Assembly (NCBI RefSeq): GCF_036880985.1
Contig: NZ_JBAJNO010000009.1
Location: 2,108,001-2,172,000 of the forward strand
Reading direction: 5' to 3'
Source of the DNA: Limibacter armeniacum
GTDB lineage: Bacteria; Bacteroidota; Bacteroidia; Cytophagales; Flammeovirgaceae
Length of the DNA stretch: 64,000 nt
Part shown: positions 7,387 through 26,445 of the stretch, in pieces
Position numbering within the stretch: the first letter of the stretch is position 1
Layout of the letters: each line of letters opens with the position of its first letter
The notes under the pieces: model-generated
The model's database searches: none
The model's input: the letters and a program-made list of their open reading frames with translations, nothing else
What the model was told of the DNA's origin: nothing
Translations under genes and position numbers: made by a program

Positions 7387-7424
7387 AAAGTAGGATTATA
7401 CTCACTTCTTCCCACCTCTAATAT

Positions 7425-10262
7425 TTATTGTACACCTTCTTCTCCTGCTTCCTCAGGAACAAAGACGATATCGATTACATTAGCTTTCTTAAAGAAACGT
7501 TTGGCTGCTTTCTCGATATCTTTGGTTGTTACATTTTCAATGACTTCATCGTAATATGCTGGCTCCAAGATATTCTCTTGTGTATCATAATACTTTGATA
7601 GCGCCTTCATCCAGTAAGCATTGCTTTCCTGACGGTTTTCCCCATTCTTTTTCATATTCAGGACTACCTTCTCCAGATCAGCTTCGCTTACATTTTTCTG
7701 AATTTCTTTCAGCTCCTTATATACCAGTGACTTCAGGTAATCTGCCTTTTCAGGGTCACAATCAAAGCCGATTTTTAGTACATTTTTCGACTCTGGGAGT
7801 CTCGAAGATGTTGGCTTTACACTAACTCCATATGTACCACTCTCCTTTTCTCTAATGTTTTCTGTAAAACGCAAGTCAAGGATAGACCCTATGATTGCAT
7901 GATAAATAATGTTCTCTCTTGAGTATTTGGTATCAGCAGTCAATTTAAGCATCACTGATGCTTTAGGTGATGCCATCGGTACCTCAATACGATACTCATT
8001 CTTGCCTTTCAGCTCATATTCATCTCTCTTAACCCATGCCTCTTTTTCCTTGTCCAGGTCTTTGATAGCACCAATGTATTTTTCAACAAGTGGCTTCAAA
8101 ACTTCCTTCTTAACGTCACCTACAATAAAGAAAGTAAAGTCACTGGCATCAGAGAAACGCTCTCTGTAGATTCTTTCCAGTTTTTCGAAGGTAATCGCAT
8201 CTAGGTATTCTTTACTGAACTCGTAAACACGTGGGTTGCCATTTCTAAAAATAGCTCTAAGTGTATCCTGCTTGATAGACTTTTCAGTTTCTATCTTAGT
8301 CTCCAAAGCTTCGTAGCTTTTTTCCATTTGCTGGTCAAACTTCTCCTTATCGAAACGCGGCTCCTCAAAACGCATATACACTAACTGAAGCATTGTTTCA
8401 ACATCCTTGGTTGTAGATGAACCATATACCGTCTCAGACAAGCTTGATACAGAAAAACCACTGCTTGCTGTGTTTCCTGTCATCACCTTTTTGTAGTCTG
8501 ATGGGTTGAACTTACCAATGCCGAATGACTTCATGTATCCAGTTACACCGCCAACAGATGGAAGGTCTTCCAATTCGTAAACAGATGAACCACCTTCACT
8601 TGTTGCACTTAGCGCTACCGTGTTTTTCTGGAAATCTGCAAAACGGTAAACCACCTTTGCTCCGTTTGATAAAGTCCACTCTTCTGCGTCAAACGTCTCC
8701 AGTTTCTTCTCGCTTACCACTTTCCCTCCTTTAGGAGTCGTGCTCAACAGTTGGTCATCCTTTGGAGCATTATCTACATAAGGCTCAATTTCTTTGGCTT
8801 CAGCCTTGGCAAGTATTGCTTCAATCTCTTCTAAAGTAGGTAGTTTGGTACCTTCCTTACTTGAGCCAATCACTGTATACACACGGTTAATATCAGTCAG
8901 GTATTTTGATGCCACAGCTGATACTTCTTCTTTAGTAATTGTTGGTACAATTTCCTTTGTAAACTCATAATTGAACTTAGCGTCAGGAATTACCGACCCA
9001 TGCAGGAATACTTGCTTCAGAGAATTACCGTATGAATCTGAATTGATCTTATCACTTTTCAGGTACTTGTTTTCTGAAGAAACCAGTGTATTTGTTTTTA
9101 GACGGCTCAATTCGCCTTCTGTAAACCCATGTCTTTGTACTCTCAACAGTTCTGTATAGATCGCTTCAACTGCTTCTGATATTTCCTCTTCCTTTGCAGA
9201 TGCACTTACTGTAAATGCGCCATAGTTTTTAACCATGCCACTAAGTGTCACTTTTCCTCCAATAAAAGGAGCATCTCCCTTTGCTTTCAGCTCCTTCAGG
9301 CGGCTATTCATCAAAGCATTGAAGAAGCTGTTCACAAAGTTTTCTCTCAAATGAGCCAATGTGTTATTCTCCCCTTCTTTTTTATGACGAACCATCAGCG
9401 TCACATTGACATTCTTCGTTTCCTGTTCCGTTGCCACTGCATACAATGGCTCCTTATTATCAGGAATCTCTATATACACACGCTCTTTAGGATTTTCAAT
9501 CGCAGGAATAGCTGAGAACAATTCAATCACTCGCTTCTCTACTGCATCTACATCAATATCTCCAATTACAGCAACAGCCTGCAAGTCTGTACGGTACCAG
9601 TCATGGTAGAAGTCACGCAAAACCTGAGGATCGAAAGTTCTTACAACATCCATGCTTCCTAGTACATCTCTTCTTGCGTAAATAGCGCCATTGTAACGAG
9701 CTTCCGCCAACTGAGCCTGAATTCTTCTACCAGCGTTTTGTCTTGTTCTCCACTCTTCATGGATTACACCACGCTCTGCATCAATCTCATCAACATCCAA
9801 CGACAACTCATTACACCAGTCGCGCAGAATCATGATACAAGAATCCACAACCATATCATTGGCAGTTGGCACACGGCTAATGTTATATACAGTCTCATTC
9901 AGTGAAGTATAAGCATTTACATCCTTACCAAACTTTACACCATGACGCTCCAGCATGTCAAGCATCGTGTTATTAGGAAAAGTGGTCGTTCCATTAAAAG
10001 CCATATGCTCCAAAAAGTGCGCTAAACCATCTTGCTCATCTTTCTCCAGCACTGCGCCTACATTCTGGTAAATGTAGAAACTAGCCCTTCCTTTAGGCGT
10101 TTCATTGTGTCTGATATAGTATGTTAAGCCATTAGGAAGTACGCCCTTTCTGAACTCCTTATCAAATGGTACTTCCTGTGAAAGGTCAGTGTATTTTTTC
10201 TGCCCAAATGACAACCCCGTCGATACAACCAGAGCCATCGCTATCAAAAAAAATTTTTGCAT
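7425..10262 (-). CDS. M16 family (insulinase/pitrilysin) zinc metallopeptidase, secreted
   Basis: Zinc endopeptidase of the clam-shell type that cuts peptides or small unfolded proteins in the periplasm or outside. A signal peptide (LSFGQ near residue 20) is followed by the inverted zinc motif in GLAHFLEHMAFNGTTTFPNN, with the third ligand Glu in ERGVIHEEWRTR about 75 residues on. The 945-residue length corresponds to two M16 halves (active N-half, inactive C-half) in one chain, as in pitrilysin. It is the last gene of an operon with two thioredoxin-fold proteins, though a 144-base gap separates it from them. Its closest relative in the window seems to be the peptidase at 34291-37125. Substrate unknown; association with SusCD import is inferred from position. 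Confidence 0.93.
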   Translation of the reverse strand: MQKFFLIAMALVVSTGLSFGQKKYTDLSQEVPFDKEFRKGVLPNGLTYYIRHNETPKGRASFYIYQNVGAVLEKDEQDGLAHFLEHMAFNGTTTFPNNTMLDMLERHGVKFGKDVNAYTSLNETVYNISRVPTANDMVVDSCIMILRDWCNELSLDVDEIDAERGVIHEEWRTRQNAGRRIQAQLAEARYNGAIYARRDVLGSMDVVRTFDPQVLRDFYHDWYRTDLQAVAVIGDIDVDAVEKRVIELFSAIPAIENPKERVYIEIPDNKEPLYAVATEQETKNVNVTLMVRHKKEGENNTLAHLRENFVNSFFNALMNSRLKELKAKGDAPFIGGKVTLSGMVKNYGAFTVSASAKEEEISEAVEAIYTELLRVQRHGFTEGELSRLKTNTLVSSENKYLKSDKINSDSYGNSLKQVFLHGSVIPDAKFNYEFTKEIVPTITKEEVSAVASKYLTDINRVYTVIGSSKEGTKLPTLEEIEAILAKAEAKEIEPYVDNAPKDDQLLSTTPKGGKVVSEKKLETFDAEEWTLSNGAKVVYRFADFQKNTVALSATSEGGSSVYELEDLPSVGGVTGYMKSFGIGKFNPSDYKKVMTGNTASSGFSVSSLSETVYGSSTTKDVETMLQLVYMRFEEPRFDKEKFDQQMEKSYEALETKIETEKSIKQDTLRAIFRNGNPRVYEFSKEYLDAITFEKLERIYRERFSDASDFTFFIVGDVKKEVLKPLVEKYIGAIKDLDKEKEAWVKRDEYELKGKNEYRIEVPMASPKASVMLKLTADTKYSRENIIYHAIIGSILDLRFTENIREKESGTYGVSVKPTSSRLPESKNVLKIGFDCDPEKADYLKSLVYKELKEIQKNVSEADLEKVVLNMKKNGENRQESNAYWMKALSKYYDTQENILEPAYYDEVIENVTTKDIEKAAKRFFKKANVIDIVFVPEEAGEEGVQ

Positions 10263-10406
10263 AAGTATTTAAATGGTAACACAAGGGAAGGATAAAGAAA
10301 TAGAACTATTTGAGTACGGCACACATAAATTTAATGAGATCATCTCTCATCCTTACCCCTTGATTTTTAATTTTGATATGAATTTGAATCAACTAGAAAT
10401 ATATTT

Positions 10407-11732
10407 TTACAAGGTTATTTCTTCTCCCTCTTTCATAGCTTCCAACTCAGCCTTGATAGTATCCACTCTTTTATAGTGTTCTTTCACTGCCAGTTCGTAA
10501 GCTTCTGATTTGATTTTCAGCGCTTCTTCCTTATTATCTCCAAACATGTATAGGATATTAGCGTAGTCACTCATTGTCAGATAAGTACCCGGCGTAATAT
10601 AATAGGCTACCTCCATCCATCTCAGCACATCCTCTTTATCCTTTTCAGTGGTAGCAAATTCTGCATAGGCTTTTACCATTCCTGAGATCTGTTGGCTTTT
10701 ACCTACTGAAAAAGGTCTAACACCCATCACATCCTTATCTCCTTGTTGCTGTCTTGTTGTAACATCTATGTAGTTGGCACGCAGCTTTTCAACATCCAAA
10801 GATTTTACAAAGGCATCATTGCCTCCATAAACCATTGCTTTGTACTTTTCACCTAGCTTGGCATTCAAGTAATAATAGGTGTATACTCTATCACGTTGAG
10901 CTTTGCCCACTTTTTGTCCTATACGCACAGCCTCTTCCAGAGCCAACTCCAGATAAGTAGTATCTTTCTTACTGATCGCATACTCTGTTGTCTGATTAAT
11001 AGCCATTTTAGGTAGGTTCAGATATATTTCACGAATATCCTTTCGCACATATTTCTTCCACTCATCTGTACCCATATTGTCCAAATAGATCTGATAAGCT
11101 TCTCCACCTATCACGATTTCCTTATGGTGATCAGCCAAAAGCAGTACCATTTCCTTACTAGATTCTTTATGACTCTTCTGTACACGCAGGTATTGCTCCA
11201 GTATCTCTGAATAACCTGTCATGTTACTAGCTTTCAACTTGTCTAAGTACAATTTCAAGAAGCCCTCATCCTCTTTCTTTTTCTCATACTGTCCAGCCAG
11301 TCTACCTACACTCTGAGGATCCTTAAAGTATTTAACTGCCAACTTCACTTCTTCCAGAAATTTTTCTGTTGGCATAAAACCTGAAAGACGGTAGACGACT
11401 TCTCCTTCGCCATCAATAAACACATAGCCTGGCAAACCATGTATTTCATATTTTTCTTTAATGGCAGGTCCTTCTCCTTTTTCTACATCCACTTTCAAGG
11501 CTACAAGGTTCTCCTTGAAATAGGCTCCTACCTCTGCCTCCTTAAAAACTGTTTTGTCCATTTTTTTACATGGCCCACACCAAACAGCATACCCATCAAT
11601 AAACAGTAGCTTATTCTCCTGCTTTGCTTTTTCCAAAGCTTCCTTAAGAGTACCTTTTTCAAATTCTATTCCTTGTGCCATCAACATGATTGGCAACAGA
11701 AGCATAGAAATAGTGCTATATATCTTTTTCAT
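10407..11732 (-). CDS. Secreted thioredoxin-fold protein with long C-terminal helical domain
   Basis: A signal peptide (LLLPIMLMAQ) is followed by a thioredoxin domain (about residues 20-135) with active site AVWCGPCKKMDKTVF and the cis-Pro region GLPGYVFID. About 300 helical residues follow that look like TPR-type solenoid repeats without a sharp consensus. The CXXC motif implies reduction or isomerisation of disulfides outside the cytoplasm. It lies 25 bases after a paralogue of the same build (11758-13095) and before an M16 peptidase. The whole protein is about four times the length of plain thioredoxin. A role in opening disulfide-bonded imported proteins for the peptidases is inference. 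Confidence 0.88.
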   Translation of the reverse strand: MKKIYSTISMLLLPIMLMAQGIEFEKGTLKEALEKAKQENKLLFIDGYAVWCGPCKKMDKTVFKEAEVGAYFKENLVALKVDVEKGEGPAIKEKYEIHGLPGYVFIDGEGEVVYRLSGFMPTEKFLEEVKLAVKYFKDPQSVGRLAGQYEKKKEDEGFLKLYLDKLKASNMTGYSEILEQYLRVQKSHKESSKEMVLLLADHHKEIVIGGEAYQIYLDNMGTDEWKKYVRKDIREIYLNLPKMAINQTTEYAISKKDTTYLELALEEAVRIGQKVGKAQRDRVYTYYYLNAKLGEKYKAMVYGGNDAFVKSLDVEKLRANYIDVTTRQQQGDKDVMGVRPFSVGKSQQISGMVKAYAEFATTEKDKEDVLRWMEVAYYITPGTYLTMSDYANILYMFGDNKEEALKIKSEAYELAVKEHYKRVDTIKAELEAMKEGEEITL

Positions 11733-11757
11733 TATTTATCGTATTTTCTTAAAATCC

Positions 11758-13095
11758 TTAAGCTTGTTTTTTGATCATTTGCTCTAGCTCATACTCAATC
11801 GTAGGGCGTTTTTTATCTGATGATGGCCATTTTTCTAATGCTGCTTTCTTCATCTCAATTGCCTCATCCATTTTGCCTCTTTTCACTAGGATCTGTGCTT
11901 CCAGATTCAACAATAAATAATGATTGGCACTTAACTCATTACCATATTTGACCCAGCCTTGCAATACCTTATAATCCTTTTTACCCTCTACCATAAATAG
12001 GTATTGCTGTCCTCTTTTACAGATCTCTTTGATGATCGCAATCGCTTCTACTCCTTCTTCATATATTTTCAAGTTTATGGCACCCATAGCAGTAGGGTGT
12101 GCTTCATAACTCGCCTTGTATTTCTCATACGTCTCTTTGTCCGATTTCTGAATCTCTTCAATCGACTTTGCTGAGATAAGGCTTTCGATATGCTCAACTG
12201 CCTTAGCTTTATAGGCTTTGTAATCTTTAGCCAATACAAGATAAGTCAGTTCATGGTCGATTAGGTTCTCCTCTTTTTTCAGATTACTAGGTAACTTTTT
12301 CCAGTTCTCCAAAAACACCCCCATCAGTTCAGCGTCTTTGTCCTCAACGGCTTTATCACGTGTATTTTTAGCCATTATACCCTTCATATAGCGTAGAATT
12401 CTCTCTTCGCTTTTGGTTGCGATGTCCATGTACTCCTCCATATTAGCATCAAGGATTTCCTCTGCTTTCCCAGCTACTAGCAAGTGCTTTCTGTTATTCA
12501 TCAGGAACTCCATCATGTCCACATCGTTCTCCTTGATTTCTGTTTGGACTGCCAGCCACTTCTCAATACCATCAGAAGGGTCTTGTCCGTACTCAATCAT
12601 TTTTTTGAAGTAAACTTTCAGGAAACGCTCATCATTTTGCTTTTCAGGATATAGTGCCTGCAATTTCTCCAAGCTGTACTCGCTGTTTACAGACTCTACT
12701 GCTTTTTTACCCAAAGCAATAAAATCATCAACTCCCATACTTCCTGTATCCTTGTAAACAGCCTTACCATCACCATCTACAAACAACAAAGTTGGATAGC
12801 TGTATACATCATATTTCTTTGCCGCAGCTTTTCCCTCTTTTTCAGCATCCAGCTTGATGCTTACAAACTCTCTATTGTAGAGTTTTCCTACAGACTCAAG
12901 TGGGAAAACTTGTTTCGCTAATATTTTACATGGGCCACACCAAACCGTATAAAAGTCAATAAATACAAGCTTGTTTTCAGCTTTCGCTTTAGCCATCGCA
13001 TCTTCCAATGAAATCTTTTCGAAGTGGATTCCTTGAGCATGCACAGTGCTCTGTATGCATATGAATAGACATATGAATACCAATACTCTCTTCAT
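11758..13095 (-). CDS. Secreted thioredoxin-fold protein, paralogue of the next gene
   Basis: The reading frame extends to 13188, but a signal peptide begins only at the ATG pair at 13093-13098 (MKRVLVFICLFICIQS..., cleavage near VHAQ), so I start at 13095. The thioredoxin domain carries TVWCGPCKILAKQVF and the YSYPTLLFVDGDGK cis-Pro region. About 300 residues of Lys/Glu-rich helices follow. It is first in an operon with the second thioredoxin-fold gene (25 bases) and an M16 peptidase. No TAnnTTTG element was found in the gap before it, so its promoter is either unlike the housekeeping type or lies further upstream. Confidence 0.88.
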   Translation of the reverse strand: MKRVLVFICLFICIQSTVHAQGIHFEKISLEDAMAKAKAENKLVFIDFYTVWCGPCKILAKQVFPLESVGKLYNREFVSIKLDAEKEGKAAAKKYDVYSYPTLLFVDGDGKAVYKDTGSMGVDDFIALGKKAVESVNSEYSLEKLQALYPEKQNDERFLKVYFKKMIEYGQDPSDGIEKWLAVQTEIKENDVDMMEFLMNNRKHLLVAGKAEEILDANMEEYMDIATKSEERILRYMKGIMAKNTRDKAVEDKDAELMGVFLENWKKLPSNLKKEENLIDHELTYLVLAKDYKAYKAKAVEHIESLISAKSIEEIQKSDKETYEKYKASYEAHPTAMGAINLKIYEEGVEAIAIIKEICKRGQQYLFMVEGKKDYKVLQGWVKYGNELSANHYLLLNLEAQILVKRGKMDEAIEMKKAALEKWPSSDKKRPTIEYELEQMIKKQA

Positions 13096-13098
13096 CAT

Positions 13099-13448
13099 AA
13101 AAATTTGTAGTTTAAATAAACTTGACATTAGTAGAAGACCATAAAGCATCCTAAAAATCACTCTTTGAAAGAAGTAATACCTAAGCATCCCAACTTGCTG
13201 ACACCCTTGTTTTATTCATCAGTTTCGAAGAATAAGGTATTACCAAAAGCTTTATTTCTATCCCAATCAGAACGAAAAACAACCAATCCGATAGTTTAGA
13301 ATACCTTTATATGAGATCAAATAATATTCACGAAATGCAATCAAAATCGCCTTTCTAACTTCAAGACGCAGAAAAAGCAAAAGGGAGTGACAAAAAAGAC
13401 TACAATAAATTTCATTGTAGTCTTTTTCTTTTGAAAACTAGCTTAATG
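13099..13448. other. Intergenic gap between two parts of the import locus
   Basis: About 350 bases without a convincing gene. It holds the strong terminator of the upstream SusC-to-M16 operon (13393-13426) and must hold the promoter of the thioredoxin operon, but no housekeeping -7 motif is recognisable on the minus strand. Confidence 0.6.
13393..13426 (-). terminator. Rho-independent terminator after the SusCD/M16 operon
   Basis: The stem AAAAAGACTACAAT and ATTGTAGTCTTTTT is perfect over 14 bp, with a 6-base loop. The T-run within the stem works in both directions. It lies 22 bases beyond the stop codon of the M16 gene at 13449. Confidence 0.88.
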
Positions 13449-16220
13449 CTAGTTGTTTATATTTGGTTTTTTAATCAACAAGAAATAATGATCAAGGTCG
13501 ATCATCTCCTTCATAAATGCTCTGAATTCATCAGCTGAAATACTCTGAATGGTTTCCTTTATTTCCGCTCTCGTTAAGAGTTTTCCGTATTTCAATCCTT
13601 GCTGTAAGTATTCGCCTTCTAATCTTTTAGTATCATAAAAAGACATAAGGTAAAGGCTTTCCATCATCGCCTTGAGTTTCTCCACGTCCTTATCACTGAT
13701 CTCCCCTCTGCTCATTGGTCCCAGCACCTCTTCAACCATAATGTTATGTGCTTTGATAATGTTTTTTTCATCAATCATATAACGGATACTGGTATACTGG
13801 AAATTGGTAGGATAAGTAGTAGTCTCTGAAGTGCTACCCATGGCATATACCAAACCATATTTTTTACGAATGATTTCGAGTAACTTCTCCCATGCGTACT
13901 GCTTCAGCACTTTGTTTACCATATCCTCTTTAAAGCTCAAGGCTTGTGCTGAGGTTTTATTAAACAGATAATCAACAAGACAGATATCCTTTCCCCAAGG
14001 GAAATCTTTCTTAATAATTCCTTTAGGATGAATCACATCATTAGCTACCTGTTCCTCAAAACGTTGAGGTTTTTCACCTTTGATTGTACCAATATATTTA
14101 GAGATCAGCTCATCAATATTCTCCGGAAGATCACCACTTACATAAATAATAGCGTTGCCAATGTTCTTTTTCAGCTGCTCATTATAAGAGAACAGTCTAT
14201 TCATTACTGCTTCATCCAATTTTGCATTCACCTCCTCTGTTTCTATGCCCTGCATCGTAACCATCTCCTTAAAAGGTTCATAAGCATCTACATGGGAAGT
14301 TTTACTAAGTTGTCTGTCCGCTGATTTTAGGAATGCATTTGTTTCTTCTTGTTGTGATGCAGTCAGGTAAAGGTTAAACAGCTGGATCATCTGAACGGCA
14401 CTTTCCGGCTTTCCAGTTAAGGCAAACTCATAGCCATAAGCAGAAACGCTCTCATCATCCTTGACCATCAGTTGTTTCCTCAATGTATAAGCTTCTGAAT
14501 TTGAATAAGTACCGAAACTACCAGTCAGATACTTATACGTCTTTGAAAATAAAGCCCTGTCTTCTTTAGGAATCGTATTCAAACCATCTTTGCCCATCAA
14601 CTTAATCATGGTTGGAGCTATTGGAGAGTTATAAACCACTACGGAAGCTCCATTTTTATACTTAAGCTGATACAAGTTTTCTCCCAATGGTATTCTTTTA
14701 ACAATCGCTGCTGCTTTTCTATCCTCGATATTTACCTCAGCCTGTACTACTTCCACCTGCCTTTTGGCAAACTTGCGAACTGGCTCTACATACTCAAAAG
14801 GAGCAACATCCAAATCATTGATCTTAGCAATTTTTTCTAGGATCAATGCTTCGTCAAAGTTCGGTGTGTAAGCGTCTTGTGTCTCGTCAAAAAGGATTGT
14901 TTTCGGATAAGTCGTAAATGTGGAGAGCAATTCAGTAAAATCCGCTGGTTTCAATGCGTTACCTACCTTTGCCATCAATTCATACGCTGCTTTTGGCGTC
15001 TGTAAAGGCTCTCCCTTCAGGAAAGCATTTTGTAATGCATCAATAGAAACACGCTCCTTTCTATTGATAGCTTCTTCAAATCTGGAAAGTCTCAGGTTGA
15101 CATAAAAATCAATCTCTCTCTGATCAAAACCGCCTTTTCTTGCTTGAGCCACTACCTGACAGAAAGCTTCTAGCATCTCGCTATAGCTCATCTTATCTGC
15201 CTGCAACCTCAGGTTATAGAGATTATTACCCGGTACCAGTGTGCTAGTAGAGATCGTTGTTCTGGATAGTTTCTTCTCTGTATTCTTCAAGCGGTGTTCC
15301 AGAATAGAGCAAAAGATATTATCCACCAACTCTTTTTTGAATGCCGCATAAGTACCCTTTTCACCTTCTCTTTCCTTAAATGCCAACACTAGCGTAGGTT
15401 TGTGGTTTCTTGACAACTCATACTGACCTGATACAACCGTCTGTTTTGTTAGATCGATGTACTTTGTCTCAGGGTCTAGTGGGTGAGCAGCAGGCGCTAC
15501 CTTTCCGTAAATCTTCTTGATATATTTCTTAGCAATTTTCGGATCTACATCACCATAAATAATCAAAGCTAGTTGGTCAGGTGTATAATATTTGTCGTAA
15601 AAATCCTGAACCCCCTTTAATGTCTTGTTCTCAATATCCGCAATGGTGCCTATTCCATTATGCCCTTCTAAAGCTGTATTGATCAAATAAGGAGATGCAT
15701 CACTTGTCTCTCCTCGGTTAATCTCTTCAATGACTACCTTTTTCTCAACCTCAAATGCTTCCTGTTCCATCTGAATATCAAACATCATTTCCTTTAACAG
15801 AAACAAATTTTGACGCAAGTGTTCATTGTTATTAGATGGGATTTGAAACCTGTAGTTTGTAAATGTACTATTAGTTGTCGCATTATAGTCTCCTCCAAAT
15901 CTCAACCCCAATTGGTCAAATGCCTCTTTGCTTTTTTCTCCCGGAAAGCTTTTAGTGCCTTTGAAGATCATATGCTCCAGCAAATGTGCTACTCCACGCT
16001 CCTCATAAGTCTCTACTTGAGAGCCTACATTTGCTACCATTCTTATTCTGACTTTACCTGGCTCTCCTTCCGGTACCAGATAATAAGTAAAGCCATTTTT
16101 TAATTTGCCGGTTGTAATGTCATCACGTAAAGACAAATCCTGCCCAAAAATTGGGCAGGAAATTGTCAATACAGCAATGAGAAATGTTAGTTTACACCAA
16201 AATTCAATTATTCTATTCAT
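13449..16220 (-). CDS. M16 family zinc metallopeptidase in the SusCD operon
   Basis: The frame opens with a TTG at 16235, but the ATG at 16220 gives a better signal peptide (MNRIIEFWCKLTFLIAV..., ending near IFGQ). The zinc motif is in GVAHLLEHMIFKGTKSFPG and the downstream ligand Glu in EKKVVIEEINRG. At about 923 residues it holds both M16 halves. It is more divergent than the two other M16 proteins in this window, which resemble each other. It follows the Ig-like lipoprotein gene with a gap of fewer than 30 bases, so it is the last gene of the SusC-SusD operon. This supports a role in cleaving what the receptor imports; FusC, an M16 protease paired with a TonB receptor for ferredoxin, is the known parallel. 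Confidence 0.92.
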   Translation of the reverse strand: MNRIIEFWCKLTFLIAVLTISCPIFGQDLSLRDDITTGKLKNGFTYYLVPEGEPGKVRIRMVANVGSQVETYEERGVAHLLEHMIFKGTKSFPGEKSKEAFDQLGLRFGGDYNATTNSTFTNYRFQIPSNNNEHLRQNLFLLKEMMFDIQMEQEAFEVEKKVVIEEINRGETSDASPYLINTALEGHNGIGTIADIENKTLKGVQDFYDKYYTPDQLALIIYGDVDPKIAKKYIKKIYGKVAPAAHPLDPETKYIDLTKQTVVSGQYELSRNHKPTLVLAFKEREGEKGTYAAFKKELVDNIFCSILEHRLKNTEKKLSRTTISTSTLVPGNNLYNLRLQADKMSYSEMLEAFCQVVAQARKGGFDQREIDFYVNLRLSRFEEAINRKERVSIDALQNAFLKGEPLQTPKAAYELMAKVGNALKPADFTELLSTFTTYPKTILFDETQDAYTPNFDEALILEKIAKINDLDVAPFEYVEPVRKFAKRQVEVVQAEVNIEDRKAAAIVKRIPLGENLYQLKYKNGASVVVYNSPIAPTMIKLMGKDGLNTIPKEDRALFSKTYKYLTGSFGTYSNSEAYTLRKQLMVKDDESVSAYGYEFALTGKPESAVQMIQLFNLYLTASQQEETNAFLKSADRQLSKTSHVDAYEPFKEMVTMQGIETEEVNAKLDEAVMNRLFSYNEQLKKNIGNAIIYVSGDLPENIDELISKYIGTIKGEKPQRFEEQVANDVIHPKGIIKKDFPWGKDICLVDYLFNKTSAQALSFKEDMVNKVLKQYAWEKLLEIIRKKYGLVYAMGSTSETTTYPTNFQYTSIRYMIDEKNIIKAHNIMVEEVLGPMSRGEISDKDVEKLKAMMESLYLMSFYDTKRLEGEYLQQGLKYGKLLTRAEIKETIQSISADEFRAFMKEMIDLDHYFLLIKKPNINN

Positions 16221-16248
16221 CACTATCTTCTTCAAGAAAACTTAGTTT

Positions 16249-17733: not shown

Positions 17734-17753
17734 AGTTACTAAAGCTTTGATGA

Positions 17754-18848: not shown

Positions 18849-18882
18849 AATCCGTATTTTTTAAATTAAAAAATTAGACTTC

Positions 18883-20328
18883 TTAGTTAAGAATGATTTC
18901 ATTTTCAATCACAGGAATCTTCTCATAGCGCTCATTATTTCTAATTAGCGGGTTATTATTCCTTTCCTTGATTGGAATTGGCAAAGTATAATTGAAATCA
19001 TCTGGCAATAGCGTATAAGTCTCCGTTCCTAACTTAACACCTTCCTGAACCAAGGTAAAAGTATGCTCGATAGTAGGTCTATTACTCATACGTCTCAGGT
19101 CAAACCAACGGTGGTGATCTTCGTAGCACAACTCTTTACGACGCTCCGTCAGTACAAATGACAATACCTCAGCAGCATCAGTTGGATATACTACTCCACT
19201 TGTATTAGTGTAGCGCATCGCATGCAATGCAGTGATATCATTGATTGCACCACTCACATTTCCTAGTTGCGCATATGCCTCAGCTCTGTTCAGGTAAGCT
19301 TCGGCAACTCTCATATTGGTGTAGCCCAAAGTTGTGAATAGTGTTCCGTACTTTCTTGTTCTGTAATACACTTTTCCTGTTCCGTCATCAAGCCCAGCAA
19401 AGAATGCTGCTTTACGGATATCGTCATCATCATAAAGCTCGATTAGCTCAGTACTGGCTCTATAAGCATTCTCTATAAATCCACCTAAATTGTCATACAA
19501 TCCATGCAAAGGAGAATAAGTATTATAAGAGTATAGTACTTCTTGGCTTGATTCTGTGATAAAAGGAGTAGCTGCAGAAAGTTTAGATAACCCTGTTTTT
19601 TCTGTTACCTTATTGGCGTATTCAATAGCCGCATCCCACTGTTGTTGATACAATTTCACTCTTGACATCAACAAGTCACAAGCTACTACTGAAGGGTGCC
19701 AAATGGTCTTTTTCACATTGCTACCTTCGATCAACTCTTTTGCCATTGCAATATCTGCTTCAATTTGCGCATAACACTCAGCGACTGAGTTTCGGTTATA
19801 CGTTTCCTCTACACCAATATCCGTTCTCAATGGCACACCCAAATCAGCCTTCGCAGAAGCAGCGTTATAAGGTTGCCCATATAAGTTGAGAAGATTAAAG
19901 TAAGAGATCGCACGAATAAAGTAAGCTTCTCCTTTTACAAATTCATTCTCAGCTGGCTCACCCATTGCATCATCTACCAACTCAATTACATAGTTAGCAA
20001 TCGCAATATCCTCATACGTATACTCCCAAGTATTATTCATCGATGACGTACTATTACCATCCTCATCAATCTCAATCTCACGCTGCCATGTGTAAGTGGT
20101 TTTCATTCCAAACTTTCTGAGCGTACTGGCAGATGGATCTTCTGTAAGATTATCTGTCATATGGTCAATTGAACTAAAAATTGGATAATGAGTACTAAAC
20201 TCTTCCAGCAACAATGCAGCAAAGTGATCTGTCTCTTTAGGTACCAGTTTATCCTGATCCACTTCTTCAAGGAAACCACTGCACCCAATCATTGGGAGCA
20301 GGGCAAAAAATATAAATAACTTTCTCAT
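18883..20328 (-). CDS. SusD/RagB family surface nutrient-binding lipoprotein
   Basis: The lid of the SusCD importer on the cell surface, binding ligand and opening like a hinge over the SusC barrel. It has a lipoprotein signal (PMIGC, Cys16) and the family's typical opening SGFLEEVDQDKLVP. Helical TPR-like segments follow (EAYFIRAISYFNLLNLYGQP, MRVAEAYLNRAEAYAQLGN), and the C-terminal SusD signature RRKELCYEDHHRWFDLRRMS is present. The 481-residue length is typical. It starts 11 bases after SusC, so the pair is translated from one message. The ligand cannot be read from sequence; the protease genes nearby favour a peptide or protein over a glycan. Confidence 0.95.
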   Translation of the reverse strand: MRKLFIFFALLPMIGCSGFLEEVDQDKLVPKETDHFAALLLEEFSTHYPIFSSIDHMTDNLTEDPSASTLRKFGMKTTYTWQREIEIDEDGNSTSSMNNTWEYTYEDIAIANYVIELVDDAMGEPAENEFVKGEAYFIRAISYFNLLNLYGQPYNAASAKADLGVPLRTDIGVEETYNRNSVAECYAQIEADIAMAKELIEGSNVKKTIWHPSVVACDLLMSRVKLYQQQWDAAIEYANKVTEKTGLSKLSAATPFITESSQEVLYSYNTYSPLHGLYDNLGGFIENAYRASTELIELYDDDDIRKAAFFAGLDDGTGKVYYRTRKYGTLFTTLGYTNMRVAEAYLNRAEAYAQLGNVSGAINDITALHAMRYTNTSGVVYPTDAAEVLSFVLTERRKELCYEDHHRWFDLRRMSNRPTIEHTFTLVQEGVKLGTETYTLLPDDFNYTLPIPIKERNNNPLIRNNERYEKIPVIENEIILN

Positions 20329-20339
20329 GGTTCTTCGAA

Positions 20340-23300
20340 TTAGAATGATGCGTTGATACTAAAGCTATAAGTAGGAAGGGAAGGTAGTCCAATGCCGGAC
20401 ACCTGTTCAGGGTCTTGTCCTTTCAGCCTTTTGTCAAATGCCCAAACATATAAGTTACTTCCTTGTACACCCAAGTTAAGGCTCTGTATCCCTGTACCCT
20501 TCAACAGGTTAGTTGGTACATTGTATGACAATGAAATTGTCTGCAAACGGATATGATCCGCTCTTACTACTCTAGCATCACTATAGTCATACATCCACCA
20601 AGCATTTGTACCATCAGGTACCACTGTTGATTGATTTGTAACATACACTGCATCATAACCATCAGCAGAAGCCTCATTACCTACAAAGCGCATTTCTGCA
20701 TCTGACAGTGCTGGGATGTTCGTATCATTCACATCACTATTCACATCATAACGGTTCAGGAATTCATTCGTCATGTTCTCATATGGCAGAGGCAGACTCA
20801 AATTGCCATTGTACAGTTTCAGCATTCTTGTCTTATGCCCCAACTTGTATGTGAAATTGGCCCCCACTCTAAAGTTTTTATAGCGAACTTGTGTACCGAA
20901 ACCACCGTAGTACAGCGGTACACGGCTACCTTCATATACCAATGCTTTTTCAAGCTGCTCTTCTGCTGTCATACCTTCCTCGACAAGGTGCTTAAACACA
21001 GGTAAACCATTTGTATTCAAGCTATCAAACTGATAAGAGAAGAAGCCATTAGTAGGAAAACCAGTTCTATAGATATTTCCATTCAGGTAGTTACTAACTG
21101 AAAGTGTTGATCCTCCTTCAAACCCTTCCAATACACGATCACGGTCGAAAGAGAAGTTAAAGTGCGTACTCCATGCAAAATCCTTTCTCTTAACATTCAC
21201 AGTACGGATCATAAACTCATAACTGCTTACATCCTTACTGCCTGAGTTATACATCTGTGTTGCTGAACCATTTACCAATGATATAGGACGGCTCTGTAAC
21301 AGGTCATCACTCTTAGAGTAAGCATAATCAAAAGCACCACTCACCCTTCCACCAAGAAGGCTGTAGTTAAGTCCTAAGTTTACTGTTTGTGTTTTCTCCC
21401 ATCTCAAGTTGGCATTTGGGAAACTTGAAAGACTCGCAGTAGTCTCAGGGTAATAAACCGCATTGTTTCTACCATAATCAGTGATAATCAAATATGGAGA
21501 AGTATTCGGCATTGTACCCCTTACACCATATGACCCACGCAGTGCCAGCTCATCAAAGAGCATTGCGTTTTGCATAAAGCTCTCATTATGAATATTCCAA
21601 CGGAAAGAGCTTGACCAGGTAGGCTTGAACTTATAACGTTCATACTGTCCAAAGGCATTGGAGCCGTCACTTCTCATATTAAAGTTCAGCACATAACGAG
21701 AGTCGTATACATAATTCAGGATACCAAATGCAGACATATAGTTCTGCGTCTTATCTGTGATTGTAGGATAAACGTCATACCCATTATTACCTGTCAACCA
21801 ATTGATCATACCATCATAATCATAAGTTGAAAAGTCAAGACCAGATTGATCAACACCTCTGTAATAACTTACGGTCGGGATAGCCACAAAGCCACGGCCC
21901 TGATAGTGGTTATAACCCGGTGAAGTAAATCCTGTTGCACCCCAATAATTAATTGAGCGAGCTTCTTGTCCCAAATTCACATTGATAGCGTGCTTACCAT
22001 ATTGCTTATGGAAATTCAACTGGTTCGTAATAGTATAGGTGTCTTGGCTTACCATTCCACCACTATAAATACCCCCGAAAGGCACTGTTGAATTATTCAG
22101 GTCTGCATTCACCAGATCCTCAAATTCATCATAGCCACGAAGCTTTGCGATATAGTAAGAATCTTCTCCGATCCACTCCTCTGTTAGGTTTGTAGTGTTT
22201 CTATAGCTTGCCTGTGTTGTAAATCGAAGGTTCTTCAAAATATCCCAACGCAAATTTGCAGCGACTGTAAAGTCTTTATTGGTAACATTCTTCGCAGAAT
22301 TATCCATTTCATTCAACACATTATAACCAGCATAAAGATCGTCAGCACTACTGTTAATCAATTGATTCTGGTAGAAGTATTCACCATTCTGATCATAGAT
22401 TGGTACTGTTCTACTTGTATAGTATGCGGTATTAAATGAGTTGATTGAACTATGGTTGTAAGTACCTTCCTGCACTGAGCCACTCATTCTTAAAGACAAC
22501 AACAGGTTATCTTTCAAGTCCAAGTCTACATTTGATCTGGCAGTAATACGGTTCAAGCCTACATTATTCTCAGTACCTGTCTGATCATCATAACCTAAAG
22601 AGAAGTAATAACGAGTATTCTCACTACCTCCTGAAGCACTCACAGCATGTCTTTGGCTAAACGAATTGCTGTACAGCTCTCCAAACCAGTCGCTGTTCAA
22701 AGTCTCCAAGTAACTTACCTGATCTTGGAATTGCTCATAGTTATAAGTACCATCCCACAGATTCATTAAAGCACCTGCATACCCTAGACGATCCACGTTC
22801 TCATAAGTACCGTCATAACCAAGGTTACGCTCATACAACTCACGAGATACCGCAATACGATCTTTAGAGTTCATCAGGTTCATATCTGAATAAGATGGTG
22901 CTTGCGTAAAGCTAAAACCACCAGAGTAGCTCAAAGATGGCTTTCCAACTTCACCTCTCTTAGTAGTAATCACAATTACACCATTGGCTGCTCTTGTACC
23001 ATAGATAGCTGTTGCCGAAGCATCCTTCAAAATGTCGATCTTGGCAATATCTGAAGGGTTAATACCTGTCAGGGCATTACCAATGACATTGACATTATCA
23101 AAACTGTTGATATCCTCAGCACTCAATGGAACCGGATCTTCATAAACAACACCATCAACAACCCAAAGAGGACTTTGGTTACCTGTAAAAGTACTACCGC
23201 TCCTGATACGAACCTTAGCCGCAGCACCTGGTGTTGAACTCATATTGGTAATCATCAGACCTGGCGTCTTACCTTCCAGCATTCTGTCAACACTGATAGC

Positions 23301-23972
23301 CCCTACGATATCAAGTTCATCAGAGGTAACTGTAGTAATGGCACTCGTTACTTCCCTTCTATCGATTTCCTGATAACCAGTAACAACTACCTCTTCCAGT
23401 CCTTTTGCTTCAGGCGTAAGCTTTATGTCCAAGTTTACTATACTCTCACCTTTTCCGATTGGCACTTCTTGCACAGAATACCCAATAAAAGAGAATGTAA
23501 GAATGATATCATTCTGCATTGGAGGCAACAGGATAGAGAACTCTCCATCTAAGTTTGTAATACTACCTAAACGACTGTTCTTCACCCTGATATTAACACC
23601 AGGCAACAGTTCTCCAGTCTCAGAATCTGACACAACTCCTTGTACCTTTATACTCTCTGATCTTCGCTTTTTGGGTTCTTCCTTAATCACTATGACGTCA
23701 TCGACCATGCTATAGGTCATATTGGTACTCAACAAAACCTCGTCCAATACTTCCTTAACTGAAGCGTCTGTTTTATCAATGGAAAAGTGGTCCAAATCCT
23801 TTACTTTATCCTCATTGACAAAAAAACTATAACCAGTTTGTTTCCTGATTTCTTCAGATAGTTCATAAAGACTTACATCTCTTAAGCTTAAATTCACACG
23901 CTTAGATTGTGAGTAGACAGTAGCATTGAGTGTTAGTAGTAAGCATATAGCTAAAGTAATATACAATCTCAT
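20340..23972 (-). CDS. SusC/RagA family TonB-linked outer-membrane transporter with STN domain
   Basis: Energised outer-membrane import barrel. In order: signal peptide (to about residue 21), an STN domain (about 25-95) of the kind that signals to FecR, a carboxypeptidase-regulatory-like beta-sandwich (about 110-195), the plug with LKDASATAIYGTRAANGVIV, and a C-terminal barrel ending in aromatic SINASF. At 1210 residues it is long but normal for SusC. The STN domain plus the ECF sigma and FecR genes just upstream show the usual surface-signalling circuit: ligand binding releases the sigma factor, which raises transcription of this operon. The 151-base gap upstream contains no TAnnTTTG element, which fits a promoter read by the ECF sigma factor. 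Confidence 0.96.
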   Translation of the reverse strand: MRLYITLAICLLLTLNATVYSQSKRVNLSLRDVSLYELSEEIRKQTGYSFFVNEDKVKDLDHFSIDKTDASVKEVLDEVLLSTNMTYSMVDDVIVIKEEPKKRRSESIKVQGVVSDSETGELLPGVNIRVKNSRLGSITNLDGEFSILLPPMQNDIILTFSFIGYSVQEVPIGKGESIVNLDIKLTPEAKGLEEVVVTGYQEIDRREVTSAITTVTSDELDIVGAISVDRMLEGKTPGLMITNMSSTPGAAAKVRIRSGSTFTGNQSPLWVVDGVVYEDPVPLSAEDINSFDNVNVIGNALTGINPSDIAKIDILKDASATAIYGTRAANGVIVITTKRGEVGKPSLSYSGGFSFTQAPSYSDMNLMNSKDRIAVSRELYERNLGYDGTYENVDRLGYAGALMNLWDGTYNYEQFQDQVSYLETLNSDWFGELYSNSFSQRHAVSASGGSENTRYYFSLGYDDQTGTENNVGLNRITARSNVDLDLKDNLLLSLRMSGSVQEGTYNHSSINSFNTAYYTSRTVPIYDQNGEYFYQNQLINSSADDLYAGYNVLNEMDNSAKNVTNKDFTVAANLRWDILKNLRFTTQASYRNTTNLTEEWIGEDSYYIAKLRGYDEFEDLVNADLNNSTVPFGGIYSGGMVSQDTYTITNQLNFHKQYGKHAINVNLGQEARSINYWGATGFTSPGYNHYQGRGFVAIPTVSYYRGVDQSGLDFSTYDYDGMINWLTGNNGYDVYPTITDKTQNYMSAFGILNYVYDSRYVLNFNMRSDGSNAFGQYERYKFKPTWSSSFRWNIHNESFMQNAMLFDELALRGSYGVRGTMPNTSPYLIITDYGRNNAVYYPETTASLSSFPNANLRWEKTQTVNLGLNYSLLGGRVSGAFDYAYSKSDDLLQSRPISLVNGSATQMYNSGSKDVSSYEFMIRTVNVKRKDFAWSTHFNFSFDRDRVLEGFEGGSTLSVSNYLNGNIYRTGFPTNGFFSYQFDSLNTNGLPVFKHLVEEGMTAEEQLEKALVYEGSRVPLYYGGFGTQVRYKNFRVGANFTYKLGHKTRMLKLYNGNLSLPLPYENMTNEFLNRYDVNSDVNDTNIPALSDAEMRFVGNEASADGYDAVYVTNQSTVVPDGTNAWWMYDYSDARVVRADHIRLQTISLSYNVPTNLLKGTGIQSLNLGVQGSNLYVWAFDKRLKGQDPEQVSGIGLPSLPTYSFSINASF

Positions 23973-24084
23973 AAACCATAATTTGTTAGGCCTTTCAAAT
24001 CAATGAAAAGCGATTAGTAGTCACCTTATTCATAAAAATTTGGCATTAAAAATTACGTGGAGCTTGTGCAGCCCTGACATCAGA

Positions 24085-24102
24085 AAGGTTGCGCGCCACC
24101 TT
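24085..24102. promoter_or_regulatory. GC-rich dyad between fecR-type gene and susC
   Basis: AAGGT-TGCGCGCC-ACCTT forms a dyad with 5-bp outer arms around a CGCG core, 22-39 bases after the FecR stop codon. It lacks a T-run on either strand, so it is not an ordinary terminator. It may be an attenuator, an RNA-processing site or a binding site upstream of susC. Confidence 0.3.
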
Positions 24103-24123
24103 CCTTCTTATCAATGCCGACAC

Positions 24124-25317
24124 TTACTCGGATACATAAATTCTCTTGTTTCCCTCTACCTTGACATTAACAGAGGTTTCTGCTTTTAAGACCTCCAGAA
24201 TACCACTCATATCAATATCGCGGGGTAGATCACCAGTAAACTTTAAGTCCTTTATGTGCTCATCTGTGAAAATCACCTCTACATCATACCATCTAGCAGC
24301 CTTGCTTAGGAAAGATTCTAAAGTCTCACTCTTAAACACGAACTGGCCATCTTTCCATGCGACATACGGATATACATCCACTTTCTGTGTATGAATCTTA
24401 CCTGTTGCTTTGGTATAAATAGATTGTTCATTAGGCAGTAAAAACTCCTGTGCTTTTACCTGACCGTTTTCCTGATGAGATACTTTGACCTTACCTTCTA
24501 CCAGTGTAGTTACAATACTTTCATCCCCCTTATAAGCTGAAATATTGAACTCCGTTCCCAGTACTTCCACATCCTGTTTTTCCACAGACACAATGAACGG
24601 ATTCACTTTGTTAGGTGCAACATCAAAATATGCTTCCCCTTTCAAGTTTACAATTCTTCTATCTCCGACAAACGGCAAAGTGTAACTCAACTCAGACTCT
24701 GAATTCAACCAAACTTTTGTTCCATCCGGAAGCTCCAACTTATATTCAGCCCCTCTCGGAATCTTCAATGTATTCACGATCGGCTCAACACTTTCACTAG
24801 ACTCACTGTATGCCAATTCACCATCACTGTTCACCAATGACATGCTTCCCTCGGTAAGCTTATCATTCGATTCCTCATCTAGGTCAACCACATCACCATT
24901 GGACAATACCAACTGCGCATGCGGCGTCCCAGGCTTGATTACAGCCTCACTAATAGTCTGATAGTTTTTGCCAAAGTTTGATGATTGGTAAAGTTGATAG
25001 GCAACAAATACAATAAGAAAGGCAGCTGCAATTGTTGCAATTCTTTTCATTACACTCAGCCTAACTACCTTTTTATCAATATGTCGATTATCCATGCGTT
25101 CTAGAAAACTATCCCATTGTTGTGACGTTTCCACTTTCTCGATTTTCTTTCGCCAATCTTCAAAAGCATCGAAATTCAGGATATCCTTTTCTATCTGCTT
25201 ATTCTGTGAATTTTTCCTCCACTCCTGATAGGCTTTCTGTTTCTCTTCATCTAAAGCTCCCAAAAAACCTCTTGCCAATAATTCTGACAACTCCCTTATT
25301 TTTTCAAAATTCATCAT
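24124..25317 (-). CDS. FecR family anti-sigma factor / sigma regulator
   Basis: Inner-membrane protein that holds the ECF sigma factor inactive and receives the signal from the SusC STN domain. A cytoplasmic sigma-binding region (about residues 1-85) has a DUF4880-like pattern with EEKQKAYQEWRKNSQNK. One membrane helix follows (about 90-107, ATIAAAFLIVFVAYQLY). The periplasmic FecR domain contains RGAEYKLELPDGTKVWLNSE and FDVAPNKVNPFIVSV, and a C-terminal DUF4974 domain (about 320-397) ends at ISE. The 397-residue length is typical for Bacteroidota. It follows the sigma gene with an 89-base gap. Two adjacent ATGs begin the frame; either may be used. Confidence 0.95.
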   Translation of the reverse strand: MMNFEKIRELSELLARGFLGALDEEKQKAYQEWRKNSQNKQIEKDILNFDAFEDWRKKIEKVETSQQWDSFLERMDNRHIDKKVVRLSVMKRIATIAAAFLIVFVAYQLYQSSNFGKNYQTISEAVIKPGTPHAQLVLSNGDVVDLDEESNDKLTEGSMSLVNSDGELAYSESSESVEPIVNTLKIPRGAEYKLELPDGTKVWLNSESELSYTLPFVGDRRIVNLKGEAYFDVAPNKVNPFIVSVEKQDVEVLGTEFNISAYKGDESIVTTLVEGKVKVSHQENGQVKAQEFLLPNEQSIYTKATGKIHTQKVDVYPYVAWKDGQFVFKSETLESFLSKAARWYDVEVIFTDEHIKDLKFTGDLPRDIDMSGILEVLKAETSVNVKVEGNKRIYVSE

Positions 25318-25406
25318 TCCGTCTTAATTTTCACAAGATATCCTTTCGTGTTACTCACATGACGCAAATCTTTATGTAGGTGGGTGACAAGTTTTATGAA
25401 AAAAAT

Positions 25407-25967
25407 CTAAAAAAATTGGATAAAACTTGTCAATAAAATCGTAACAAACTGACTACCAAGACCTTCCCTCAAAGCTTTATAAGCTCTTTTTTTCACTGTT
25501 TTAACTGTGTTAATACTAACACTCAATTCATTTGCAATCTCCTGATTAGTATAACCTTTTAAGGTAAGTCGTACTACAAGTTCAGCTTGAGGAGACAGTT
25601 TCTTGATCTCATCATACAGAAGCTGATAGGTTTCTTCCCTAAGAACTTCATGTAAAAACGCTTCATCAGATACTGTTAAACCTTCTTCAATGGAGGTGTT
25701 TTTTATGTTTTTCTCTTTGCGTAAATGTGAGATACAGGCGTTTTTCACAAGGACATACAAATACGCCTGCAAAGCATTCTCATCAGTGAATTCTTCATCT
25801 TGCTTTTGCTGCCATAATTTGACAAAAGCTTCTTGAGCAATATCTTCTCCCTTCTCCTCGCTTTTGAGAATACGAGATGCTAACATACACATAGCCGGAA
25901 ATAGGCGTTCAAAAATAGATTTGAATGCCGGACTATTATAACTAATAGTTATTCCGGATACTTTCAT
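25407..25967 (-). CDS. ECF (FecI-type) RNA polymerase sigma factor
   Basis: Sigma-70 family extracytoplasmic-function factor controlling the SusCD operon downstream. Region 2 is at about residues 15-85 (GEDIAQEAFVKLWQQK, then LQAYLYVLVKNACISHLRK). Region 4 is at about 120-172 (LSPQAELVVRLTLKGYTNQE, then the helix-turn-helix NELSVSINTVKTVKKRAYKA). The 186-residue length is normal. It is followed by the FecR anti-sigma gene and then susC, the standard order of this circuit. Its own promoter at 26077-26106 is a good housekeeping type, so it is probably made constitutively and regulated by FecR at protein level. Confidence 0.95.
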   Translation of the reverse strand: MKVSGITISYNSPAFKSIFERLFPAMCMLASRILKSEEKGEDIAQEAFVKLWQQKQDEEFTDENALQAYLYVLVKNACISHLRKEKNIKNTSIEEGLTVSDEAFLHEVLREETYQLLYDEIKKLSPQAELVVRLTLKGYTNQEIANELSVSINTVKTVKKRAYKALREGLGSQFVTILLTSFIQFF

Positions 25968-26076
25968 AAGAAGATATTATTTTGTTAGATAGTAGTTATC
26001 ACACAGTAGTATAGAGAGTCTAAAATAAAGAAGCGGTTTCTCTTTAAATAGAACTGGTGCAGTTTGAAATAATCCC

Positions 26077-26106
26077 CAAATATAAAATTTGCCAAACGCA
26101 ATACAA
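26077..26106 (-). promoter_or_regulatory. Promoter of the ECF sigma gene (Bacteroidetes type)
   Basis: On the minus strand a -33 TTG (26104-26106, within TTTG) is followed after 19 bases by TATATTTG (26077-26084), a full match to TAnnTTTG. Transcription would start near 26070, leaving a leader of roughly 100 bases before the sigma start codon. Confidence 0.7.
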
Positions 26107-26445
26107 ATCAACTTTCAACAACAATTTTCAATTTGGTCTTCAATTGTACAAAAAACAAAAAGAACAATTAACATCTTAAGGTGATATTAATTATATGTAT
26201 CCTACAATCTTGAGACAGGTTTGAATATTAAAGAGTTATAGATATACTCCTTAAATACAAATCATTTTTCACCTTAACCATCCCTAAAGACTTACTACCC
26301 TTAAAAATTTGCTTTTTTTCTATCTTGATTTCTTATTTTCTAGATTGTTACTAACAAATGGAAATAAACTTTAAATCTAAAAAAGAAGCCCTATTTCTCA
26401 CCTCTCAACACCAAACAAAGTACTAATCTCCACAGTTAATACCTC

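Follow-up and report, generated by a model that had tools for sequence, protein, structure and literature searches.

What would a transporter pair of the SusCD type take in when it is encoded together with two M16 proteases and two thioredoxin-fold proteins? Glycan import is the usual reading of SusCD pairs, and protease-coupled import through TonB-dependent receptors has so far been surveyed in Proteobacteria. The question is raised by a ten-gene locus of Limibacter armeniacum (Bacteroidota), which lies at positions 7425-26106 of a 64,000-nucleotide stretch of contig NZ_JBAJNO010000009.1, here called the window. All genes share the minus strand and follow one another as sigma factor, fecR, susC, susD, the lipoprotein genes for MetLip and Iglip, M16a, a gap, TrxA, TrxB and M16b. 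We consider it rather probable that this locus encodes a self-regulated SusCD importer whose protein or peptide cargo would be reduced and digested in the periplasm, in a manner similar to the Fus system of Pectobacterium, on another receptor.

Conservation of the gene set

According to the initial annotation of the window, this reading hinged on whether the thioredoxin and M16 half is kept with the SusCD half in related genomes, and in seven close orthologous loci it is. One genome per species was scanned with a SusC-barrel profile, which gave 599 pattern matches, 565 of them confirmed, and the best 80 yielded 78 loci. The seven loci with a SusC 63-70% identical over its full length (global alignment) belong to Algoriphagus zhangzhouensis, Zhouia amylolytica, Carboxylicivirga sediminis, an uncultured Carboxylicivirga, Aestuariibaculum sediminum, A. 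suncheonense and Flavobacterium granuli, and thus span the Cyclobacteriaceae, Flavobacteriaceae and Marinilabiliaceae. The sigma factor (63-74% identical), FecR (46-51%), SusD (58-67%), both lipoproteins (Iglip 43-55%), M16a and M16b are present in all seven, with sigma factor and FecR preceding SusC and a thioredoxin gene directly before M16b each time. A search of these genomes located the M16b ortholog (50-59% identical) each time where the cluster was expected to end. At least two thioredoxin genes occur in six of the seven, the uncultured Carboxylicivirga (locus L291) having a single one in view, and an apparent third is seen in four loci (L212, L213, L215 and L221). The gene order of the window recurs in three loci as far as the stretch extends, that is, through the second thioredoxin gene; the thioredoxin genes precede M16a in two others, two extra genes stand before M16a in one, and in F. 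granuli M16a and the thioredoxin genes are divergent and a DsbD-like gene lies inside the SusCD unit. Judged by gene content, the ten genes are a conserved unit whose order has been shuffled among the seven other loci.

Within the L. armeniacum genome itself, 20 of at least 52 other SusC places were read as a control (23 SusC rows). A thioredoxin-fold gene was present in the contiguous operon in 1/20 and an M16 gene in 0/20. The single case, L207 (G000:C8:2404600-2424500), is itself akin to the window locus, being a second sigma-FecR-SusC-SusD-lipoprotein-TlpA locus. At another of these places (L194) a DsbD-like gene lies farther along, beyond the operon as defined, and two SusC places of the same score and length (G000:C6:17123-19966 and 200163-203006) perhaps reflect a recent duplication. 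M16 relatives in seven longer loci of the same taxonomic order have no SusCD beside them. The exception is a single genus belonging to the family of the window, where the M16 gene stands directly before SusC-SusD (L078 and L080, in G013 and G015); in three short loci of that genus (L018, L021, L022) an M16 gene likewise adjoins SusC.

A protein search found MetLip in none of 57 other genomes, including 17 others of the family, and a scan of genome contigs gave 28 pattern matches, none of which was confirmed. Since single-sequence methods miss MetLip relatives, absence of MetLip does not mean absence of the locus. The search for Iglip in 193 other genomes returned only weak partial matches, in four of them. 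In each of the seven genomes SusC, by global alignment, is more similar to its window counterpart than is seryl-tRNA synthetase, for which the search match shows 60-67% identity; the M16 trees partly track taxonomy, the window grouping with Algoriphagus. The SusC identities, together with the fact that MetLip was not found in the 17 family genomes, are no more than suggestive of a horizontal transfer of the cassette.

A promoter-like site before both transcription units

Both parts of the locus are preceded by the same promoter-like site. Its pattern was derived from the gaps before the thioredoxin unit, where the window shows it as GTCACTC-N15-GCGTC (13365..13391) after a terminator. In the general form GTCAC[TC]C-N14/17-GCGTC it occurs before fecR in 8/8 loci and before the thioredoxin unit in 7/7 with the start in view. 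Because the pattern came from the thioredoxin side, the sites on the fecR side constitute an independent check; they lie 35-45 bases 5' of fecR, and one of them, in F. granuli, has a 14-base spacer. In the window this site reads GTCACCC-N16-GCGTC (25361..25388), 44 bases 5' of fecR, and we predict the two sites to be the extracytoplasmic-function (ECF) promoters of the first and the second unit.

With spacers of 15-17 bases, 16 sites were counted in 152 kb of the seven loci and 2 in the window, against 1 in 478 kb of other loci of the own genome and 1 in 3.68 Mb of 251 other loci, a background that partly overlaps since at least 27 of 87 short loci are nested in longer ones. Thirty shuffles of the eight loci, in which two-base blocks were moved as a rough control, held a mean of 0.03 such sites. 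When a spacer of 14 is allowed as well, the four counts become 17, 2, 1 and 3, respectively. When up to two mismatches are allowed and the window is taken by itself, the strict pattern turns up twice against 0.58 expected, and 13 of 100 shuffles contained as many. As we read it, the weight of the site evidence lies in the exact form and the positions of the sites, not in the mismatch-tolerant count of the window. Extra sites stand before the divergent TlpA-like gene of F. granuli (with one mismatch), before M16a in C. sediminis and before the extra genes in L214; in the two Aestuariibaculum loci such sites lie past M16a. A third site of the own genome, in locus L062 (G000:C3, 11251-11277), lies 186 bases 5' of a TrxA paralog (9683-11065, minus strand), which is likely a third member of the regulon. 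In the relevant part of a flavobacterial study, a CGT box at -10 was taken as the mark of ECF promoters (PMC9723704).

The gap of 260 bases between M16a and TrxA contains a strong hairpin of the intrinsic terminator type (13385..13432), found by folding (-17.7 kcal/mol, z -4.98; equalled in 0/200 shuffles), which bears out the terminator that the initial annotation had placed between the halves; its 3' end overlaps the promoter-like site that follows. Terminator and shared sites therefore point to two transcription units, which probably answer to one sigma factor. A terminator-like hairpin 3' of the second unit (7355..7386) comes from the consensus scan alone, which gave 15 sites in the window against 11.5 in shuffles. 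A candidate housekeeping promoter, TTTG-N19-TATATTTG (26077..26107, minus strand), lies 5' of the sigma gene and resembles what we take to be the Bacteroidota housekeeping consensus; it is its position that speaks for it, since matches of this type are no more numerous in the window (3) than in shuffles (3.6).

The component proteins and their relatives

M16a (13449..16235, motif HLLEH) and M16b (7425..10262, motif HFLEH) both match PF00675 and PF05193 above cut-off and are thus M16 metalloproteases. The HxxEH motif is kept in 8/8 M16a and 8/8 M16b proteins, and the later EE is aligned in 8/8 M16a. Among solved structures M16b matches 9ldy (593 bits), PqqL 6ofs (259 bits over 31-925) and 6b03/6brs (147 bits), the last presumably FusC; an M16 of the FusC/PqqL kind is therefore encoded with the TonB-dependent transporter SusC in the window and in 7/7 orthologous loci. 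In a first quick tree M16b belongs to a 13-row clade in which 11 members, M16b included, are SusCD-linked, separate from the sampled solitary M16 proteins; linked and solitary contexts change 5 times on this tree against 16.1 in shuffles (0/500 as low), eight rows of uncertain context being left uncounted. Among the first 65 rows M16b is closest to the M16 of L110 (40% identical). M16a is a fast-evolving protein (35-40% identity to its orthologs, with the catalytic motif kept). A first placement on a branch of 4.62 gave no reliable position and was superseded by a clade of its own comprising M16a and its seven orthologs; the branch leading to this clade remains long and may pull the E. coli outgroup towards it. 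The presence of two unlike M16 proteases in 8/8 loci may suggest two cutting steps or two substrates. In an uncultured Odoribacter (L262), two close M16b-type genes (787-3600 and 6023-8836) flank sigma factor and FecR before SusC. The window holds a third full-length M16 (M16c, 34291-37125, minus strand) without SusCD neighbours; in the tree its closest row, at 51% identity, is a solitary M16 protein from the same family.

Domain scans identify TrxA (11758..13188) as an exported thioredoxin-fold protein with a long C-terminal part and TrxB (10407..11732) as a second thioredoxin-fold protein, both with the motif CGPC; CxPC is found in 7/7 TrxA and 7/7 TrxB rows. SusC has 0-1 cysteines, and neither MetLip nor Iglip has an invariant cysteine apart from that of the lipobox. 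Because the exported proteins of the operon hold so few conserved cysteines, the client of the thioredoxins is probably foreign to the operon. DsbD or DsbD-like genes stand beside SusCD-M16 in L089, L097, L110 and F. granuli, for which reason we lean towards a reducing rather than an oxidising pathway.

MetLip (17754..18848) had been annotated as a metallohydrolase-like lipoprotein, of which the fold held up and the metal site did not. It has no Pfam family, two chance-level matches in NCBIfam and no match to PF15890/TIGR04549. By profile-profile comparison it matches Mx1 with a probability of 98.5 (E 2e-15), against 3.8 for the single sequence. A structure predicted from 44 sequences (pLDDT 86, against 34 without relatives) has as its best match 4l7a, a putative zinc metallo-peptidase of Bacteroides caccae (Z 11.0, rmsd 4.3, 213 residues aligned). 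Foldseek alone also put 4l7a first, at E 0.04; the rows below it (Z 7.0 or less, mostly the domains of one toxin) fall under the caution line of the tool and were not used. The zinc motif HExxH is absent from MetLip of the window, where its position aligns to SRIIG, from 20 equivalents in the SusC clade described below and from 72/72 such proteins of the SusC-profile loci; it is present in 7/7 Mx1 proteins of the sister type. On the predicted model MetLip is an Mx1-fold pseudo-enzyme, a dead zincin, and would serve for binding or as a structural element and not as an enzyme. For Iglip (16249..17733), which has orthologs in 7/7 loci, the earlier label of an Ig-like protein could not be confirmed; it belongs to no Pfam or NCBIfam family. 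No convincing alignment by eye was obtained with DUF4302 proteins, and its similarity to the positional equivalent in L170 is not significant.

Upstream of these genes, the ECF sigma factor (25407..25967) matches Sigma70_r2 and r4_2 above the Pfam cut-offs and TIGR02985 at E 1.9e-33 (116 bits, below the cut-off of 126.4). It is followed by the FecR-type anti-sigma factor (24124..25317; PF04773, PF16344) and by SusC (20340..23972), which matches TIGR04056 at 650 bits (cut-off 368) and TIGR04057 at 60 bits (cut-off 46). The STN-like domain of SusC (E 2.5e-6, 27.6 bits) is slightly below the Pfam cut-off of 28.4; with this proviso, sigma factor, FecR and STN-bearing transporter together form a FecIR-type signalling set. 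The surface lipoprotein SusD (18883..20328; PF14322 and PF07980 above cut-off), adjacent to a barrel of the SusC/RagA type, makes up the transporter pair. The initial gene list is thus borne out: sigma factor, FecR, SusC with STN, SusD, two lipoproteins, two M16 and two thioredoxin-fold genes on one strand. Reading of the translations indicates signal peptides on the proteins from SusC through M16b, lipobox cysteines in SusD, MetLip and Iglip, and likely starts inside the listed frames of M16a (ATG at residue 6) and TrxA (near residue 31-32).

A quickly built tree comprising 78 SusC proteins (two of 80 rows, shorter than 900 residues, were omitted, one being L095 with thiol and M16 genes) pairs the window SusC with that of L170 (an uncultured Phocaeicola; L218 in the named set) within a clade of 21 with support 100. 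Gene labels on this tree came from HMMs seeded with Pfam-checked proteins. Within the clade the operon contains a thiol oxidoreductase gene in 19 cases, lacks it in one and is cut in one (19/20 decidable), against 0/21 in the sister clade of 21, which carries Mx1 and DUF4302 lipoproteins. The thiol label changes 5 times on the tree against 19.3 in shuffles (0/500 as low), a clustering that is partly expected from kinship. L207 falls in the larger set that comprises both clades. A MetLip-type lipoprotein is in view in 72 of the 78 loci and cut in six; 33 of these 72 have a thiol gene, and one (L214) has an M16 and no thiol gene in view. The proteases of related loci vary and include M16, M43 (L170), DUF4953 Met-zincin (L173), aspartyl (L174), S8 together with aspartyl (Pedobacter L263) and S9-like ones (L252, L269).

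Other SusCD arrangements came into view as well. In L227-L257 and others (28/72 loci), a DUF4953-like Met-zincin comes after SusC, SusD and a dead-zincin lipoprotein. These loci form a second type of SusCD set coupled to a protease, found, for example, in Bacteroides, Butyricimonas, Prevotella and Marinifilum. The SusC-SusD-Mx1-DUF4302 type with HExxH in Mx1 is widespread (L136-L139, L151-L167), often behind sigma-FecR. Five loci (L082, L087, L092, L093, L100) combine SusCD with an ABC ATPase and ABC_transp_aux, followed by M16 (Pfam on L082 only), and in Odoribacter L224 a comparable ABC set stands after SusCD-MetLip-Iglip.

Proposed import route, its rivals and its meaning

SusCD pairs are lidded barrels driven by TonB, STN and FecR relay signals to ECF sigma factors, and M16 proteases accept unfolded chains in a closed chamber. 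On this basis, the SusD lid and the two surface lipoproteins would capture a protein or peptide, the dead zincin perhaps only binding it, and SusC would draw the cargo across the outer membrane at the expense of TonB energy. Cargo-loaded SusC might then signal via STN and FecR to the ECF sigma factor, which would fire two like promoters, one for fecR, susC, susD, the lipoprotein genes and M16a, the other for TrxA, TrxB and M16b; import and processing parts are proposed to rise together because one sigma factor fires both. In the periplasm the thioredoxin-fold proteins would reduce disulfides of the cargo, and the M16 proteases would cut the reduced cargo into usable peptides.

The closest described parallel is the Fus system (FusA/FusC) of Pectobacterium, together with YddB/PqqL of E. 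coli, where a TonB-dependent transporter is tied to a periplasmic M16 of the PqqL/FusC kind; as set out in parts of PMC6793856, other proteases substitute for M16 in some clusters of such "protease-associated import systems". The likeness to FusA/FusC drawn in the initial annotation applies to the kind of M16 and not to the receptor. The window locus is not a member of Fus, since its receptor is of the SusC/RagA family (TIGR04056) and not of that of FusA/YddB, and it differs further in its SusD lid, two M16 proteases, thioredoxin-fold proteins, surface lipoproteins and ECF sigma/FecR pair. The gene-cluster section of PMC6793856 treats Proteobacteria, and its main text names SusC once and thioredoxin not at all. 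With the Ics system of Capnocytophaga canimorsus, which acts on the host protein transferrin, the locus shares the order SusC-SusD-metallohydrolase; compared by description only, it differs in a MetLip without zinc motif and in its thioredoxins and M16, neither of which the section concerned names among the Ics parts (PMC5429918). RagAB of Porphyromonas gingivalis, as described in part, is likewise a SusCD pair implicated in protein uptake, but the window SusC scores 124-166 bits with RagA chains against 371 with 8ypu, which with 8ypt is the closest solved SusC/SusD. Among the solved structures that it matches, no group separates a glycan from a peptide importer; our literature search, which covered papers accessible without subscription, found no paper on the structures 8ypt, 8ypu and 9ldy. 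The SusC-SusD-Mx1-DUF4302 loci of the closest sister SusC clade, often with sigma-FecR, carry at the corresponding position a lipoprotein that shares the MetLip fold; they differ in their HExxH (7/7 Mx1) and in having DUF4302 in place of thioredoxins (thiol gene in 0/21). A combination of SusCD, a thiol oxidoreductase (TlpA/Trx/DsbD), M16 and in some cases other proteases is also seen in L110/L142, L089, L095, L102 and L097; these have no MetLip-type match, and L142 and L097, for which a full SusC was available, belong to other SusC lineages. In the same literature search no described SusCD locus with M16, TlpA or thioredoxin partners was found. We therefore file the locus under protease-associated TonB import of a new build, with a SusCD base and thioredoxin partners. 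More tentatively, it might be a transferable, sigma-wired cassette that takes in a disulfide-bonded protein via SusC, with unfolding by thioredoxin, two M16 proteases, a dead zincin as receptor part and a regulon reaching a distant thioredoxin gene.

Several observations weigh against the proposed import, reduction and digestion. The gene set is kept and its two units share a promoter-like site, which supports the view of the initial annotation, but of the two activities only the thiol one extends to the wider SusC clade, M16 being present in only 2/21 rows. Among the 72 lipoprotein loci, 28 have a zincin-like protease (labelled by similarity to one Pfam-checked protein, of L173) and no thiol gene in view, and 10 have neither. 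In a second M16 tree, from which 22 mostly solitary rows were omitted, M16b lies in a set of 21 rows, 19 of them linked, with a support of only 88, and the linked proteins of L181, L097 and L107 are placed among solitary rows, as are five from a single genus within the family of the window. The matches of TrxA and TrxB to models for DsbD, DsbH and thioredoxins in general all stay under the cut-offs, and the close TrxA paralog in L062 (541 bits) is without SusCD. SusD keeps one non-lipid cysteine in 8/8 loci and two more in 6/8, and M16b keeps two in 8/8, so that these two proteins could be thioredoxin clients as well. That both units probably answer to the one ECF sigma factor is, moreover, a link made by sequence alone.

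The prize could also be iron or another metal: an iron-bearing protein would be taken in or stripped and degraded by the M16 proteases, with thioredoxins helping to unfold it. This is largely a special case of import and digestion, with iron as the gain, and we regard it as a serious possibility, if on the whole an unlikely one, because SusC-SusD-metallohydrolase loci include a published transferrin-iron system. The match of M16b to PqqL and the presumed FusC structures fits this view. According to the sections on these genes in PMC5429918, C. canimorsus uses serotransferrin iron through the SusCD-type system icsA, C-H, and the icsC/D/E counterparts of Riemerella anatipestifer, which encode SusC, SusD and a "substrate import-associated zinc metallohydrolase", are up in iron-limited medium (log2 3.1-3.8); in the same paper three SusCD loci go up and three go down. 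The ics gene order, as published, is that of the sister SusC clade, yet that clade, the nearest to the window's, differs in its active-type Mx1 and lack of thioredoxins. A SusCD/DUF4302 locus of Bacteroides thetaiotaomicron (BT3958-59, BT3961) has negative values in the iron-depletion tables as excerpted from PMC10434189, and no iron-handling gene was seen among the window-locus genes scanned.

That the system disposes of or senses antimicrobial peptides, importing and destroying cysteine-rich peptides for defence and not for food, appears improbable to us. Reduction followed by M16 digestion would suit small disulfide-rich peptides, and ABC ATPase and ABC_transp_aux genes occur in some SusCD-M16/lipoprotein loci (L082, L224), but no immunity, resistance or ABC gene was identified among the window-locus genes scanned, and TonB-driven import would be a costly way of removing a toxin. 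A rhizobial peptidase that interacts with host cysteine-rich peptides is described, in part of a paper using the term M16, in PMC8175422. The least probable of the alternatives, in our estimate, is an ordinary SusCD glycan locus whose thioredoxins and proteases perform envelope quality control. The solitary TrxA paralog elsewhere in the genome would agree with it, as would the general knowledge that most characterised SusCD systems carry glycans. As the initial annotation had stated, glycan enzymes are absent: no carbohydrate-active enzyme family was found in the ten locus genes (Iglip having no family), the four genes downstream or the five upstream. The first glycosyltransferase outward from the locus is at 32154, and the locus is thus not a polysaccharide utilization locus defined by carbohydrate-active enzymes. 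The flanking genes look unrelated, with a cyclophilin-type isomerase downstream and a no-family protein, a folate enzyme and others as far as seryl-tRNA synthetase upstream. The conservation of the set in seven other loci with a common promoter-like site, and the scarcity of conserved cysteines among the proteins that the operon exports, also speak against envelope quality control beside a glycan importer.

Import of a protein or peptide with reduction and digestion in the periplasm, which we favour, would suggest that Bacteroidota possess a class of importers that take in folded or cross-linked proteins. The sigma site, the named species with the set, for which six of seven records carry strain names, and the purifiable proteins may offer handles on the cargo of non-glycan SusCD systems, and MetLip would represent a metallopeptidase family recruited as a non-catalytic part of the cell surface.

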